Positions 16,247-22,635 of a DNA stretch of 53,959 bases are shown here, piece after piece. The position numbers were made by a program, and so were the translations under genes. Position 1 is the first letter of the stretch. Each line of letters begins with the position of its first letter. The notes below the pieces were generated by a model. The model was not told where the DNA came from and searched no databases. It saw only the letters and a list, made by a program, of their open reading frames with translations. The DNA is taken from positions 1 to 53,959 of the forward strand of contig CAILUD010000190.1 in the NCBI GenBank assembly GCA_903837285.1, read 5' to 3'. This DNA comes from an uncultured Bacteroidota bacterium. GTDB lineage: Bacteria; Bacteroidota; Bacteroidia; Bacteroidales; GWA2-32-17.

Positions 16247-18207
16247 TTAAATAGGAAATTCAATTTTCACTTTTGTTCCTATAGGTAAATTGTTATAATC
16301 TTTAAGGTCGGTATATTTTATATTTAGCTTACTTTTATGAAGTTCATTAATTAGTGAAATTCTTGACTCTGTAATCTTTGTTCCCCATGACACATGATCG
16401 GGTTTCTTTTTTTGTCGAATTTCTCTGGCTTTTTCTCTCCCAATTCCATTATCTTCGATTTCACATTTTAGTATATTGTTATACGAACTAAAATTAATTT
16501 TCAATATTCCACCATCAACATTTTCACGATGCATTAATCCGTGCCATATTGCGTTTTCGACAAATGGTTGTAAAATTAACGGAGGCAAATTAATTAATTC
16601 AAAATCGGGAATAAATTCAACCTGTAAATCGAAAGAAAATTTATTTTCGAAACGCAATTGCTCAAGTTCAACATATAGTTTTAGTGCTTCAATTTCATCG
16701 GGTAATGTTATTGCTTGCTTTTGCGAATTATCTAATGTAAGTCTCATAAGTTTTGCAAATTTTGATAAATATTTACTTGAGGCTATTTTATCATTATTTA
16801 AAAGAAAAAATTGAATCGAATTGAGAGTATTAAATATAAAATGAGGATTCATTTGCTGACTTAATGCCTTTTGCATATATAGATTTAGATTTTTCTCAAG
16901 AGCATGACGATTTTTTATTGCTCTATTCATAGAATAGATATAAAATACTGCAACAACTAGCAGAATAATTAAAGCAATTGCAAACATCCAATATTTAAGC
17001 AGTCTTTGATTATTTAGCTCTTCTTCTTTTTGTTTATACTGAAGATTTTTTAATTGTTTGTCGCGATTTAAAATTGCAATTTCTTGTTCCTTTTTTTCAT
17101 TTTCATAATAAGTTTGTAAAGCATCTAATTTCTTTTTGCTTTCTGCATTAAATAAAGAGTCTTTTAAATGATTATACTTATCAGAATATGCAAAAGCTTC
17201 TTTAAAATTATTTTGCGAAGCATAAAGTTCAGAAAGTAGTTTATAATCATCAATTATTATATTTTGAGCATGTGTTTCATTTGCTAACTTAACACTTTCG
17301 GAAAGACAAGCTAAAGCTCGTGCACTTTGTTTGGTCTCGTAATAAGCTTTTCCCAAACTAAATAACACATTAGCAATAGCTGTTTTATTTCCCGATTTTC
17401 TATTAAATTTAAAGATTTATTAAAAAGATTAATAGCTTCATTATATTCTTTTTTTAACAAATATGCATTACCTAAATTATTATAACGTATGGTTAAATTA
17501 AATTCATTTTTCAATTCTGTATCAATAACTATAGCCTTATTTAAATAATCTATTGATTGATCAGGTTTATTCATCTTAAGATAAACCCATCCAATATTAC
17601 TTAACCTTGCAGCACATAAAGCTTTATCGTTTCTGGCACTATCAGTTTTATATGCATTAATAAAATATTCTAATGCTTTTGCAAATTGTTCAAATCGCGT
17701 ATAAACAATTCCAATATTATTTAATCTTATAGCTATTTTAGCTGTATCGTTTCTTTCATAATCAATTTTTAATGCTTTATGAAAGTTGTCAATTGCAATT
17801 GAATAATTCCCTACGGCACAATATGAAAGCCCGATATTATTTAATCTAGTAGAAATATCTACTTTATTTTTAAGTTTTTTATCAATCTTAAGAGCTTGTT
17901 CATAATATTCAATTGCCTTAATATACTGATCATTTAAATAATACACTACGCCCATTTCATTACTTGCAGCAGAAAGTTTTTGTGCACTTCCTAGCTTTTT
18001 TGCAATACTAATTGCTTTTTGATTATAAAAAATAGCCGAATCGGTATTAATGCCTCTGTATTGCGCAGCAATATCAAGACATATATTAAATTTTGCTGAA
18101 TCTGGACTAATACTCAATACATTCTTTAAACTATCAACTATACTTGCTCTTGAGGATATAGTGCTTAATATAATAAGTATAAAAATAAACGGTATTTTCC
18201 TTTTCAT
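16247..18207 (-). pseudogene. TPR-containing LytS-type sensor kinase, interrupted by a frameshift
   Basis: Two overlapping open frames together make one sensor kinase. The first (ATG at 18207, signal MKRKIPFIFILIILSTISSRA) encodes a periplasmic TPR region. The second continues the TPR, then has a coiled coil, a transmembrane helix (WMFAIALIILLVVAVFYIY), and a His_kinase/ATPase part (MNPHFIFNTLNSI, LQPFVENAIWHG, DNGIGREKA). The reading frame moves by one base near 17395-17400, where the coding strand reads GAAAATCGGG. Adding one A would join the frames into a 653-residue protein. As written, frame one ends at 17311 after an off-frame tail, and frame two could only restart at a GTG (17368). This may be a true inactivating deletion, a phase-variable A-run, or a sequence error. 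The gene follows a probable LytTR operator and precedes its regulator. Confidence 0.85.
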
Positions 18208-18221
18208 TGTATTAAAATATG

Positions 18222-18229
18222 CAAAAGTA
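18222..18229 (-). promoter_or_regulatory. Putative -7 box of the TPR kinase/LytTR operon
   Basis: On the minus strand TACTTTTG fits TAnnTTTG, ending 14 bases before the ATG at 18207. The -33 position (about 18249-18254) has only TTTTT without G, as expected for a promoter that needs an activator bound just upstream. Confidence 0.45.
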
Positions 18230-18257
18230 AAAATACATAAAAAAGGTTTAAAAAGTA

Positions 18258-18298
18258 TATATGAGTTTCCTAACAACGTATATGAGTTTCCCAACGGT
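18258..18298 (-). promoter_or_regulatory. Candidate LytTR regulator binding site (two direct repeats, 21-bp period)
   Basis: On the minus strand GTTGGGAAACTCATATA (18295-18279) is followed by GTTAGGAAACTCATATA (18274-18258), 16 of 17 bases identical and one 21-bp step (two helical turns) apart. The upstream copy extends to ACCGTTGGG, which fits the published AgrA-type LytTR half-site pattern [TA][AC][CA]GTTN[AG][TG]. The other copy keeps the GTTAGG core. The pair lies about 30-65 bases upstream of the -7 box of an operon encoding a LytTR regulator. Binding is inference. Confidence 0.55.
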
Positions 18299-18312
18299 AA
18301 AAAAAGCAAAAA

Positions 18313-18342
18313 AAAGAGGTTACAGAATTCTGTAACCTCTTT
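18313..18342 (-). terminator. Rho-independent terminator of the S74-domain gene
   Basis: A perfect 30-base palindrome (AAAGAGGTTACAG... centred on GAATTC) lies 20 bases after the stop at 18362. On the minus strand it is followed by a T-rich run. It separates the surface-protein operon from the kinase operon. Confidence 0.85.
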
Positions 18343-18361
18343 TGGCGGATATAATCATGAG

Positions 18362-21304
18362 TTAATGATTTAATAATTGATTAATTTGTTTTTGCTGCTC
18401 TGCTACAATTGCTTTTAAATCTTCAATTTGTTTTTGTTGTTCTTTAATCGCTTCAACAATCATCGGACTTAATTTTGAATAGTCAATTGACAAATATCCA
18501 TCGGTATCGGTAACTACTATCTCTGGTAATAAACTTTGCATTTCTTGTGCTTTAAACCCAATTTGTTTTTCATTATTAAAACTTCTATCTGGAAATTCAT
18601 CTTTTTTCCAATAATAATTAAACCCATGCATTTTTAGTAACCGTTGTAATGGATTTTCTATTTCGGTGAAATCTTTCTTAAAGCGAGTATCAGAACATGC
18701 TGTTATCGCACCTACAATAAACGCTGCAGGAGCTCTAACTGCTGTTGACGAAGCAATATCTCCGATAACATGAAGCTTATATACAGGATTTGCACAACCT
18801 ATTCCAACATTTCCATTCATAAAAACACCTGCATACCTATTCGCTCCCGTTGTAATAGCATCTGCATATATTGCATAAAAATTATTATTTAATATAGGAT
18901 TAGGTATTATTGTTCCTAAAGCAGCATAAACTCCAACAGCACCCCAACCATTTGTACTTCCTATTCCTTTTATTCCAAAACCATATCCATAACTATTTGC
19001 AATACCATCTCCTTGTCCAAAACCAGTTACACCAGCATTTTGATAATCTGTGATTGAAGAAGTTTGGTTTGCATATCCGTAAATTACATTTTTATGTGCA
19101 TCTGCAGTTTGTGTAACGGTTAACTTTTCACTAGGAGTAGCAATTCCAATTCCTACCTTACCATTATTAAAAACAATAGTTTTTGATAGAGTTAATGCTG
19201 CATCAGTATAAAAAACATAACCACCATTAAATCGAGACATAAATTGATTTGCTGCTGTTGAAGCGGTTGCTGCATTAGTTGAGTTATCTCCTAAAATAAA
19301 AGAACCTGCTAACCCACTTGTAGAAGTATAATTCCCCATTGCTGTTGAGTATAATCCAGAGGCTGTAGTACTTTCTCCTATTGCAGTTGAAAAATCTCCA
19401 GAGGCCGTAGCACTTGAACCCATTGCTGTTGAGGCAGTTCCAGATGAAATTGTATTAACCCCACTTGAAAATGAATAAACGGATGAAGCTGTACTGGCAC
19501 ATAAAGCGGTTGAAAAAATTCCCGAAGCGGTTGCATTATAGCCCATTGCGGTCGAATAATCCCCAGAAGAAATTGTATTATAGCCCATTGAAGTTGAAAA
19601 ATCTCCTGAAGCGGTTGTATTATGGCCCATTGCGGTTGAATAGTCTCCACTTGCTATTGAATGATAGCCTGTTGCTATAGAAACTACACCACTAGCTGTT
19701 GTTCCATTACCAATTGCTGTAGACATTGCTCCACCTGCAAGAGAATTAATACCCATTGAAGTTGAATTTTCCCCACTTGCTGTTGTAGAAGAACCAAATG
19801 CAGTTGAGTAATTTCCAGAAGCATTAGTATAATGCCCCATTGAAGTTGAAAAAAAACCAGATGCTATTGTATAACCACCCATTGCTGTTGATGAAGTTTG
19901 AGATGCAGTTGTAGAATAACCAATTGCTGTCGAGGCTTCTCCCGAAGCAACTGTCCCATAACCCATTGCAATTGAAAGATATGCAGAGGCGATTGTATTC
20001 ATGCCACATGCGAATGAATTTAATCCAACATTCGCATTATCCCAAGTTGTACCAGTTACTTCTCCTACTCTAAATGCTCTTTTCACGGGAATCCACATCA
20101 TTCTAGCTCCAGCGCCAGATGCTGGTGTTACTCCAGTTGTCGTATTTCCACTTGCCCAAAAGGCTCCTCCGGTAGTTATTCTAAAACCTTCAACTGACTG
20201 TCTTTTTATAACTACATCTATATTATCAGTTGTACCAATAAAATTTGTTCCAGCAGTTGTTCCAGCATTTCCAGTTAGCGACCAATCATTTCCTGCACCT
20301 GGAACAGCTCCCCATACTCCAGTTCCCAATAATACTTGCGAAGAGGTTCCTGATGTCATTGGAATTAAAGTTCCATTTGCATCAGCTTGTACCATTCTAT
20401 TTCCAGTTCCTGACAACAAAGAAATTCTTACATTACCAACAACGTGCAATTTTTCTAAAGGAACCAAAATACCAATACCTAAACTACCAGTAGCAGTTAA
20501 TCTCATTGTTTCGGTATTTCCAGTATTAAACTTAATAAAACCAGAAACACCGCTACCTTCTAACCTTAAATGAGAACCAGCATTTCCTCCAGAAGCAATA
20601 TATGTATTCCCTCCAGAGTTATTAATCATTTGGAATGCATTAGCACCAGCAGTACAAAATCCTCTATTTGAATTACAGAAGGAAATATGTCCTTTTAAAG
20701 CACCACCTTCATAAAAATATATTGCAGAACCACCATCAGCATTTGGATTATCAAATCTTACGCTTGTTAATCCTGAACTATTATTAGAGATATGAATTAA
20801 CTCCTGTGGATTATTTGTTCCAATTCCAAGCCTACCAGCTGAAGTAAACCTCATTCTTTCTACTGAATTTGTAGCAATTATTATATCTGTAGGGTCAGTA
20901 GTGCCCAGAAAATTTTCACCAGCAACTACACCTGGAGTTGTTCCAGCATTTCCATTTAATGACCAACCACCAGAAGTAGAAGAAAACAAATAACTCCAAT
21001 TAGGTGTTGTATTTGTACTTGTGTTATAATAAAATCCCTGAAGTCCATCTACTTGATATACAACTAGCCCTTGCGCTGCCTCGGGTAAAGTAATTAGGGC
21101 TGCTTTTTCTGCGGCCGTCATTCGTGGTATCAGCAATCCCTTTTTTTCAGTTAATGCCGAAACATCAATATCGAGCATGGCTGAACTATTCGGTGTTGCT
21201 CCTGTGCTGTTAATCCCTATGTTTTGTGCTTTTACATTTAATGTAAAAACAATAAACATAATTGTAAGGATTATCGAAACCGTTAAAAGATTTCTTTTTT
21301 TCAT
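18362..21304 (-). CDS. Surface protein with YadA-head-like repeats and C-terminal S74 intramolecular chaperone domain
   Basis: A 980-residue secreted protein. It has a signal peptide (residues 1-26, ending VKAQ) and a domain common in Bacteroidota surface proteins (SSAMLDIDVSALTEKKGLLIPRM). Two GRLGIGTNNP/SLGIGILVP-type beta segments typical of tail-fibre-like proteins follow. Next is a block of 17 tandem repeats of about 14 residues, such as STAMGHNTTASGDF, resembling the left-handed beta-roll of YadA heads. The C-terminus is an S74 domain: the SDTRFKKDF segment has the Ser and Lys expected for self-cleavage, followed by KQIGFKAQEMQSLLPEIV and a terminal coiled coil (KEQQKQIEDLKAIVAEQQKQINQLL). 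S74 domains trimerise phage tailspikes and then cut themselves off. Its ATG overlaps the stop of the upstream T9SS cargo (ATGA), so translation is probably coupled. No T9SS C-terminal domain is seen; how it leaves the cell is unclear. Confidence 0.88.
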   Translation of the reverse strand: MKKRNLLTVSIILTIMFIVFTLNVKAQNIGINSTGATPNSSAMLDIDVSALTEKKGLLIPRMTAAEKAALITLPEAAQGLVVYQVDGLQGFYYNTSTNTTPNWSYLFSSTSGGWSLNGNAGTTPGVVAGENFLGTTDPTDIIIATNSVERMRFTSAGRLGIGTNNPQELIHISNNSSGLTSVRFDNPNADGGSAIYFYEGGALKGHISFCNSNRGFCTAGANAFQMINNSGGNTYIASGGNAGSHLRLEGSGVSGFIKFNTGNTETMRLTATGSLGIGILVPLEKLHVVGNVRISLLSGTGNRMVQADANGTLIPMTSGTSSQVLLGTGVWGAVPGAGNDWSLTGNAGTTAGTNFIGTTDNIDVVIKRQSVEGFRITTGGAFWASGNTTTGVTPASGAGARMMWIPVKRAFRVGEVTGTTWDNANVGLNSFACGMNTIASAYLSIAMGYGTVASGEASTAIGYSTTASQTSSTAMGGYTIASGFFSTSMGHYTNASGNYSTAFGSSTTASGENSTSMGINSLAGGAMSTAIGNGTTASGVVSIATGYHSIASGDYSTAMGHNTTASGDFSTSMGYNTISSGDYSTAMGYNATASGIFSTALCASTASSVYSFSSGVNTISSGTASTAMGSSATASGDFSTAIGESTTASGLYSTAMGNYTSTSGLAGSFILGDNSTNAATASTAANQFMSRFNGGYVFYTDAALTLSKTIVFNNGKVGIGIATPSEKLTVTQTADAHKNVIYGYANQTSSITDYQNAGVTGFGQGDGIANSYGYGFGIKGIGSTNGWGAVGVYAALGTIIPNPILNNNFYAIYADAITTGANRYAGVFMNGNVGIGCANPVYKLHVIGDIASSTAVRAPAAFIVGAITACSDTRFKKDFTEIENPLQRLLKMHGFNYYWKKDEFPDRSFNNEKQIGFKAQEMQSLLPEIVVTDTDGYLSIDYSKLSPMIVEAIKEQQKQIEDLKAIVAEQQKQINQLLNH
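19307..20017 (-). repeat. 17 tandem 42-bp coding repeats (14-residue YadA-head-like motif)
   Basis: In-frame repeats within the S74-domain protein. The consensus is roughly S-T-A-M-G-x-x-T-T-A-S-G-D-Y; one unit (STALCASTASSVY) is 13 residues. The array could expand or contract by recombination, changing head length. It also produces long spurious open frames on other frames. Confidence 0.85.
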
Positions 21305-22587
21305 GGGGTAGTTATTAATAGTTTTTTATTACACATTGTTTTTGAGCTTTCTGCTCTAAAAATATAAATTGCACTTGCAATTTGTTCTAAGGATATTACA
21401 AAAAACTGGTTGCCTGTATTTGCATTATAATTTCCTGTTGTAATTAATTTTCCCTGAATATCGAATAATGAATAATTCACATTGCATGAGTTTTGAAAAT
21501 TCGATTGTACCTGAATTATATTTCCATCAGAAAATGCATTTAAAGATTCTACTTTTGCTCCGCAAGGTATTACTGAAATTTCTTCGCTTAAGTCAAAATT
21601 GCCGTCATTATTGTTTGTTTTAAGGCGGTAGTAAATTACCTTATCACTTACTTCATTATAGGTAAAATTATAATTAGTAATTGAAATTTGATTAGATGGA
21701 GATGCAGTATAAATTGTTGTCCACGTATTTAAATCTTCGCTTTTTTGCAATTCAATGTTTACAACATTTATTTCAGATGCATCAGTCCAGTTAATATTCA
21801 TGACATTATCGGTACAATTTGCAGTAAAACTAATAAGATCAATTGGTAGCGGAGATAAATTAGAAGATAAAATAAACGGTGCGCTAATACCTAATCCATT
21901 AGGAATTAAACTAATATTATTAACTGTACCAGTACCTGTTGTAACACCTGACCCAGTTCCAGTAGACAAAAGCCAGATATCGGTAGGAACATCAAATTGC
22001 TGTGCATTAAAAATTCCAGTTGGGTTTGACGTAGTATTTTCAACTCCACGGTAAGTAACATCAAAAGTGGCACTTACATTTGTACTTGCAAGCATTTGCC
22101 ACCATCTGTCTATTACAGAATTTAATTCGTTTCCACCCGCTATTCCAATCATATTTGAAACAGAATTAGCCCATAATAAATTATTTGCAGGTGTTCCCCA
22201 TGTTGAAACAACAATTGGTGATGCATTATTTATATGCCCAACTCCGCTACCAACTGAATTTTTATGAATTGTAACTGGCAAATAATCTGTATTACTATAT
22301 CCAAATGGAATCACAAAATCTGTTGCAGCAATAACATCATTAGTATTTAGTTGAACAAAATTTCCTTCCATTTCAGAAATAATATGTCCGCTATTCCGAA
22401 CAATTGCAGTAGGCTGTCCACTATTTACAACCAAATAAATTGGATTTGACCATGTTCCATTATTAATATTTACAAAAGCACCATTTAAAACTAGAGAATT
22501 GTTTTGTGCAAACGAACCTATCAGACTGCATAAAAATAACATGCAGCTAAGAATAAGGCGATTATATATTTTTATGTTAAAAAACAT
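21301..22587 (-). CDS. Secreted protein with type A-like T9SS C-terminal sorting domain
   Basis: The 428-residue product has a signal peptide (MFFNIKIYNRLILSCMLFLCSLIGSFAQ), a beta-rich N-terminal domain, and a fibronectin/Ig-like segment about 100 residues long starting at LPIDLISFTANCTDNVMNINWTDASEINVVNIELQ-like sequence. The tail (IQVQSNFQNSCNVNYSLFDIQGKLI ... IYIFRAESSKTMCNKKLLI) matches the Por-type secretion domain of T9SS cargo. I start it at the ATG at 22587: the 16 upstream residues of the longer frame precede the signal peptide and overlap a likely promoter. It is the first gene of an operon with the S74-domain protein and may be its surface anchor or partner; that is inference. Confidence 0.82.
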   Translation of the reverse strand: MFFNIKIYNRLILSCMLFLCSLIGSFAQNNSLVLNGAFVNINNGTWSNPIYLVVNSGQPTAIVRNSGHIISEMEGNFVQLNTNDVIAATDFVIPFGYSNTDYLPVTIHKNSVGSGVGHINNASPIVVSTWGTPANNLLWANSVSNMIGIAGGNELNSVIDRWWQMLASTNVSATFDVTYRGVENTTSNPTGIFNAQQFDVPTDIWLLSTGTGSGVTTGTGTVNNISLIPNGLGISAPFILSSNLSPLPIDLISFTANCTDNVMNINWTDASEINVVNIELQKSEDLNTWTTIYTASPSNQISITNYNFTYNEVSDKVIYYRLKTNNNDGNFDLSEEISVIPCGAKVESLNAFSDGNIIQVQSNFQNSCNVNYSLFDIQGKLITTGNYNANTGNQFFVISLEQIASAIYIFRAESSKTMCNKKLLITTP

Positions 22588-22604: not shown

Positions 22605-22635
22605 CAAAATTATACTTATTTTTGAGTGTACACAA
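22605..22635 (-). promoter_or_regulatory. Promoter of the T9SS cargo / S74 operon
   Basis: On the minus strand TTG (22635-22633), 20 bases, then TAATTTTG (22612-22605) matches the Bacteroidota -33/-7 pattern. The -7 box ends 17 bases before the ATG at 22587. The region lies in the 70-base gap between two divergent genes. Confidence 0.55.

Follow-up and report, generated by a model that had tools for sequence, protein, structure and literature searches.

The window analysed in this study (the entire stretch of DNA, 53,959 nt, from an uncultured Bacteroidota bacterium) contains a pair of overlapping genes on its minus strand. The upstream gene (22587..21301) encodes a protein of 428 aa, referred to here as the cargo, while the downstream gene (21304..18362) encodes a fibre protein of 980 aa and starts within an ATGA overlap (21304-21301) with the cargo gene. 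The overlap, the lengths, the strand and the coordinates are all as given in a first-pass annotation of this DNA.

A promoter-like box (TAATTTTG; 22605..22612, minus strand) is located 25 nt 5' of the cargo ATG. It is of the TAnnTTTG type, which we take to be the promoter consensus of the Bacteroidota, and an identical distance separates box and cargo ATG in the sister genome G004. Since the motif occurs 89 times in the window (both strands), i.e. is common by chance, only the conservation of the box in G004 counts in its favour. The fibre gene is followed by a predicted intrinsic terminator (18312..18343, minus strand; a 14-pair stem and a T run). The first-pass annotation had also drawn attention to a LytTR-like operator and a kinase operon immediately downstream. 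The LytTR regulator and kinase genes are real (confirmed by Pfam), and a direct repeat (two copies of GGAAACTCATATA, 21 nt apart) is present beyond the fibre terminator, 5' of the TPR/LytS-type kinase gene; G004 retains one whole copy (the first) and part of the other 5' of this gene. A tie to the pair is not supported, because the terminator lies between the fibre and kinase genes and the repeat lies 5' of the latter. Judged by sequence features, the genes for the kinase and the LytTR regulator are therefore neighbours forming a separate unit outside the cargo-fibre transcription unit, and co-transcription of the pair with them was rejected on account of the 14-pair terminator.

Modular structure of the two proteins

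The division of the fibre protein into domains is well supported. Behind a Sec-like signal (by eye) lies an N-terminal module, referred to as NT (residues 25-112; GINSTGATP..SAMLDI..KGLLIPRM; 20969..21232, minus strand), whose model has a mean pLDDT of 81. This model gave no significant fold match in Foldseek, the top two rows being the tip of a mosaic adhesive trimer (MAT) fibre (E 0.09 and 0.12). A capping-loop motif (V-G-..-x-x-P-x-x-x-L) occurs four times in the fibre, starting at residues 159, 275, 717 and 833. Residues 425-661 (19322..20032, minus strand) are made up of YadA-head-like repeats of 14 residues: the Pfam family YadA_head (PF05658) matches in nine stretches (E 2.3e-38, 130 bits), the stretch is 42% self-identical when compared at a lag of 14, and 17 units were counted with a 14-mer consensus made in this analysis (at least 6 of 14 positions matching). 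The S74 chaperone domain (18515..18694, minus strand) begins with Ser871, where the Pfam match also starts (Peptidase_S74, PF13884; 46 bits, gathering cut-off 22); a search of the genome places it identically, and it is also seen in the alignment with PDB entry 6f45. The Ser871/Lys876 site (SDxxxK; here SDTRFK) is kept. Among the 58 S74 proteins of the examined regions of the order, the form SDx[RK]xK is found in 50 and the looser S[DSNE]xxxK in all 58. The protein ends in a coil (residues 945-980; 18365..18472, minus strand; by eye), so that residues 871-980 consist of S74 and coil.

Sequence matches of the fibre in the PDB include the BpaC head (7o23, E 1e-23), the S74 domain of a phage long tail fibre (6f45, 5e-8) and Bd2133 (8ond, 9e-7; fibre residues 143-294). 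The mosaic, phage-like composition proposed in the first-pass annotation (17 YadA-head repeats plus S74 with its Ser/Lys site) is thus borne out, as is the statement that the fibre has no T9SS tail of its own: no sorting domain was found on it by Pfam (to E 0.1) or NCBIfam (to E 1). Nor was a C-terminal beta-barrel anchor found, YadA_head and Peptidase_S74 being the only Pfam matches to E 0.1.

The cargo protein (21301..22587, minus strand) has a signal peptide (by eye) and a T9SS-type sorting domain. Its model is confident about residues 247-428 only, the N-terminal region being mostly below pLDDT 50. The confident part comprises (i) an Fn3-like beta-sandwich (residues 247-343; 21559..21849, minus strand; blocks of pLDDT 74-86), with a VIA-align Z of about 10 to Fn3 domains, and (ii) the sorting domain (residues 346-428; 21304..21552, minus strand), of Ig-like fold (blocks of pLDDT 70-90). 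The top Foldseek row of the model was PorU (6za2, E 2.5e-6), which, standing amid many Fn3/Ig-like rows, decides nothing. The sorting domain scores just below the curated cut-offs (Pfam, 23.5 bits vs 27; TIGR04183, 21.7 vs 23) and is also matched by the sorting-domain (CTD) HMM built in this analysis. The earlier assignment of the upstream gene as a T9SS substrate is probably right as regards the type of its tail, which is slightly sub-threshold in Pfam and TIGR04183.

Conservation and recurrence of the gene pair

The sister species (genome G004) has kept the gene pair, including the ATGA overlap, and the surrounding genes are conserved too. The two species share 80.1% identity in the cargo, 84.5% in fibre residues 1-110 and 75% in the last 36 residues (the coil), vs 35% in the S74 core; YadA_head has no match in the G004 fibre, where a different repeat is present instead. 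In other words, what differs between the two species is the middle of the fibre; its two ends and the cargo are constant. G004 is the only one of four other genomes of the genus with an orthologous pair, the remaining three having given much weaker matches, which we count against the two-part adhesin proposed below.

In the order as a whole, S74 is present in 71 and NT in 51 of 149 genomes. We examined 136 regions and the window (137 sources), mostly the best-scoring among the matches listed, some contig-edge or low-ranking ones being omitted; loci L001-L048 and L065-L079 (small or overlapping) were excluded from the counts. The NT, S74 and CTD HMMs were built in this analysis from the same regions as those counted, and among about 1000 reversed C-termini the CTD HMM had 3 matches at its 0.05 limit. 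Gene calls came from a simple longest-ORF script, and some "other" neighbours are possibly spurious ORFs.

These sources hold 178 NT genes from 44 genomes; 39 of these genes also encode S74. None of the 178 NT proteins in the examined regions of the order (157 are complete at the 3' end) has a CTD of its own. By comparison, a CTD is carried by 29 of the 69 tight (no more than 50 nt, same strand) non-NT neighbours of NT genes, vs 39 of 401 when tight neighbours were counted for the other genes of these regions (odds ratio of 6.7 for NT genes) and 5 of 261 in 20 background regions (20 kb; 12 of the same genomes), which were hand-picked on large contigs away from NT matches and are thus arbitrary, not random. 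Fisher values ignore relatedness; a one-sided Wilcoxon test on per-genome paired differences, which collapses the data by genome, gave a weaker excess than the gene-wise counts (of 26 differences, 15 were positive and 8 negative; p 0.01). Tight non-NT neighbours of NT genes exist in 30 genomes, of which 16 have at least one CTD pair and 14 have none. Since, in addition, a tight sorting-domain partner is found for 28 of the 178 NT genes, many NT fibres must manage without an adjacent partner.

The partner is encoded upstream of the NT gene in 15 cases and downstream in 14, which rules out a fixed gene order. Of the translational coupling suggested by the first-pass annotation, the ATGA overlap stands in both the window and G004, but a fixed order resting on coupling does not. 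By NCBIfam (E<=0.001), 20 of the 29 partners have type A and 6 have type B sorting domains; the CTD of L185_5 rests on the HMM of this analysis. The partners vary in length and domains, another point to be set against the two-part adhesin. The body of the window cargo is shared by 11 of the 29, vs 13 of 63 non-partner sorting-domain proteins, and a common partner family is not claimed.

The association extends beyond the order. NT was found in 45 of the 247 genomes of a phylum sample, and the 40 regions fetched among these matches hold 52 NT genes. Outside the order, CTDs are present on 5 of 13 tight non-NT neighbours vs 1 of 139 for other genes, one further "other" neighbour (in L224) with a CTD-like tail by eye being left uncounted. 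Genome G282 (L226) encodes three tandem NT proteins that also contain S74 and a CTD-like tail (HMM E 1e-12 to 8e-10); this tail was called by neither Pfam nor NCBIfam, and we again enter this against the proposed adhesin. Two further loci, found by a protein search, have fibres with a YadA head and S74: in Dyadobacter diqingensis the fibre gene is followed by a CTD gene (gap of 61), and in Kriegella sp. EG-1 a CTD gene precedes the fibre gene (gap of 80). The CTDs of both partners exceed the curated cut-off. The NT HMM matched neither fibre, so that these share the head and S74, and not the N-terminus, with the fibre of the window. No CTD gene was found at the loci of a Zixibacteria MAG and a Cytophagales MAG returned by the same protein search. 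The pairing recurs and is more than a chance neighbourhood: it is kept in the sister species, and in other families and orders sorting-domain genes lie beside related fibre genes at far above the expected frequency. The first-pass annotation had proposed a search for such pairs in other Bacteroidota.

The host genome of the window encodes a T9SS translocon (SprA, 2663 bits) and has at least 150 sorting-domain places over the cut-off. SprA was detected in all 45 NT genomes of the phylum sample vs 145 of the 202 without NT (p 2.6e-6), and within the order in 50 of 51 NT genomes vs 90 of 98 others (p 0.17), the sole NT genome in which SprA was not found being 82% complete. Seventeen of the 20 SprA-negative phylum genomes listed (of 57) come from one family. 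Because SprA is so common, its co-occurrence with NT is weak evidence. In C166 (L063) and C198 (L064), two proteins of the host genome, S74 is followed by a sorting domain that scores above the Pfam and TIGR04183 cut-offs. The export route, left open in the first-pass annotation, is narrowed to this extent: host S74 proteins with a sorting domain of their own exist, and NT was found, with one exception, only in genomes with SprA.

Relation to known surface fibres

Several known systems resemble parts of the pair. One likeness is to the MATs of Bdellovibrio bacteriovorus (e.g. Bd3182 and Bd2133; PMC10769870, accessible text). Like the window fibre, MATs combine a signal peptide and a constant N-terminal domain, which in MATs measures about 130 aa, with a capping-loop beta-prism stalk, S74 and tips that are interchangeable; the SDxxxK site is present in 13 of the 21 MATs, and the S74 domain of Bd3182 cleaves at S782. 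A capping loop on a beta-prism stalk characterises MATs, and in the window fibre we found, at the sequence level, the fourfold motif together with the 8ond match. The window fibre differs from MATs in its KGLLIPRM-type N-terminus, in the inserted YadA-type head and in the pairing of its gene with a sorting-domain gene, a link that does not appear in the accessible text of PMC10769870.

Phage tailspikes and tail fibres equipped with an intramolecular S74 chaperone (6f45; PHROG families) share with the fibre the C-terminal position of S74 and the site residues. They differ from it in that the window protein starts with a Sec-like signal and an N-terminus of Bacteroidota type and is encoded at a cellular locus. 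Trimeric autotransporter adhesins (YadA, BpaC 7o23) share the YadA-head repeats; the window fibre, in contrast, ends in S74 and a coil, and classification as a trimeric autotransporter (type Vc) was rejected, as Pfam, to E 0.1, showed no C-terminal membrane anchor. SprB/SprF and PG1035/PorP exemplify the retention of a T9SS-secreted surface protein by another protein, type B substrates being thought to be held by PorP-like proteins and the holder of SprB being encoded beside it (PMC9143113, accessible text). Here, unlike in SprB/SprF, the sorting domain (more often of type A than of type B) is located on the neighbour and not on the fibre. Two of the tight neighbours of NT genes that do not carry a CTD, at L145 and L195, encode PorP/SprF proteins, and at L187 of the host genome three consecutive genes encode an NT protein, a type B protein and a PorP/SprF protein. 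A report of two tandem colony-spreading genes (PMC9950754) was set aside as not relevant, the name "YadA" in its accessible part being that of an author. A search of the titles and abstract openings of the open-licence literature found no report in which T9SS sorting domains were combined with S74 or tail-fibre domains, which is not proof that such a combination is unpublished.

A putative two-part surface adhesin

We propose, with about even confidence, that the operon encodes a two-part surface adhesin, in which a MAT-like trimeric fibre is assisted in export and/or anchoring by its T9SS partner. In favour of this we count the domains, the ATGA overlap and cargo kept in G004, the constant fibre ends, the excess of CTD genes beside NT genes within and outside the order, the adjoining PorP/SprF genes, the NT proteins of the order being devoid of a CTD whereas NT-S74 fusions with a CTD-like tail exist in G282, and, as weak evidence, the co-occurrence with SprA. 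The fibre would consist of a signal peptide, the constant, cell-proximal NT module, an exchangeable beta-prism and YadA-type head, and the C-terminal S74 chaperone. S74 might aid the folding of three chains and then cut itself off before Ser871, while the 428-aa sorting-domain protein could supply, in trans and via contact with the constant NT module, T9SS-linked export and/or attachment at the cell surface. Where an intact S74 precedes a CTD in one chain, cleavage would sever the CTD; by this reasoning trimerisation and cleavage would follow export. The model described for type A substrates has them emerging from the translocon with the CTD first and bound to PorV (PMC10994853, accessible text). 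The broader proposal, that two-component T9SS fibres (S74-matured trimers devoid of a sorting domain, exported or held in trans by a co-encoded sorting-domain protein) are widespread in the Bacteroidota, is put forward tentatively and is on balance unlikely. Bdellovibrio is not known to have a T9SS, and its MATs are nevertheless found at the surface; a T9SS helper need therefore not be required. This too speaks against the two-part adhesin, as do the variable gene order, the weaker per-genome excess, the many NT genes that have no adjacent partner and the sub-threshold score of the cargo's sorting domain.

The clustering of genes might also arise without any partnership, if independent surface proteins were collected in shared islands and the fibre had its own route of export or anchoring. 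This is a serious possibility, though short of an even chance, since sorting-domain neighbours are richer around NT loci in general (39/401 vs 5/261) and the gene order varies; moreover, the surface element that holds Bdellovibrio MATs, to which their N-terminal domain presumably binds, is described as yet to be identified in the accessible text of PMC10769870. On the other hand, NT genes exceed even this enriched local background at distances of up to 50 nt, single chains combining S74 with a sorting domain exist, and the ATGA overlap is retained in G004. The pairing data would also fit if the roles were reversed, i.e. if the fibre escorted or displayed the T9SS cargo, or if the sorting-domain protein formed the tip of a mixed fibre, and the lack of a confident model for the cargo N-terminal region agrees with this. 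We consider such an arrangement improbable: it is the cargo that is constant between the sister species and the fibre head that differs in kind, the opposite of what is expected of a variable tip.

It is very improbable that the fibre gene is a leftover prophage tail fibre. Parts of the fibre are indeed matched by 681 phage records and by PHROGs tail-fibre families, but none of these records reaches 80% coverage of the fibre, and the best place of each of the 681 is below 60% identity. The signal peptide (by eye), the cellular-looking neighbours, the conserved gene surroundings in G004 and the 15 S74 genes of the host genome likewise argue against a phage remnant, and a prophage reading was rejected on the basis of the neighbours, the coverage and identity of the phage records and the conservation in G004.

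Returning to the two-part adhesin, the pairing names a candidate surface partner for MAT-like fibres in the Bacteroidota. Should this partner act in trans, inventories of T9SS cargo based solely on the presence of a sorting domain would overlook a class of surface fibres, and if the two-component reading is true, the sorting domain need not sit on the secreted chain.

A different N-terminal module, of the QYQAV type, was observed on 11 S74 proteins of the examined regions, 10 of them in the host genome; we presume that it resembles the N-terminus of Bdellovibrio MATs.

S74 sites ahead of sorting domains

In two S74 proteins of the window's own genome (loci L063 and L064) and in the G282 fusions (L226), the S74 chaperone domain retains both the Ser and the Lys of its self-cleavage site and is followed by a sorting domain or, in L226, by a CTD-like tail matched only by a purpose-built CTD HMM. 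Because this region lies C-terminal to the retained site, self-cleavage would, judging from the sequences, detach it from the fibre.

Neighbourhoods of fibre and NT genes

At three loci of the same genome (L057, L058 and L060; C26, C27 and C213) there are arrays of genes that encode large fibres whose N-terminus is of the QYQAV type, and many of these carry S74. The tight neighbours (same strand, within 50 nt) that QYQAV-type genes have throughout the regions examined are of two kinds only: six further members of this family, and three CTD genes, at L057, L124 and L162.

In the window's family, genes with the Bacteroidota N-terminal module (NT) recur at L111, L180, L182 and L190 together with small genes (~100-180 aa) and a CTD gene that encodes ~470 aa. 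In the window's own genome (C203), an NT gene, a type B sorting-domain gene and a PorP/SprF gene are consecutive (L187:4975-9145).

The downstream kinase gene

The TPR/LytS-type kinase gene (window 16247-18309, minus strand) occupies two frames that change near 17400, reflecting either a true frameshift or an assembly error; its ortholog in the sister-species genome G004 is uninterrupted over the stretch compared. Located 5' of the kinase, the direct repeat GTTRGGAAACTCATATA (two copies, spacing 21 nt; 18258-18292, minus strand) is partly conserved in G004.
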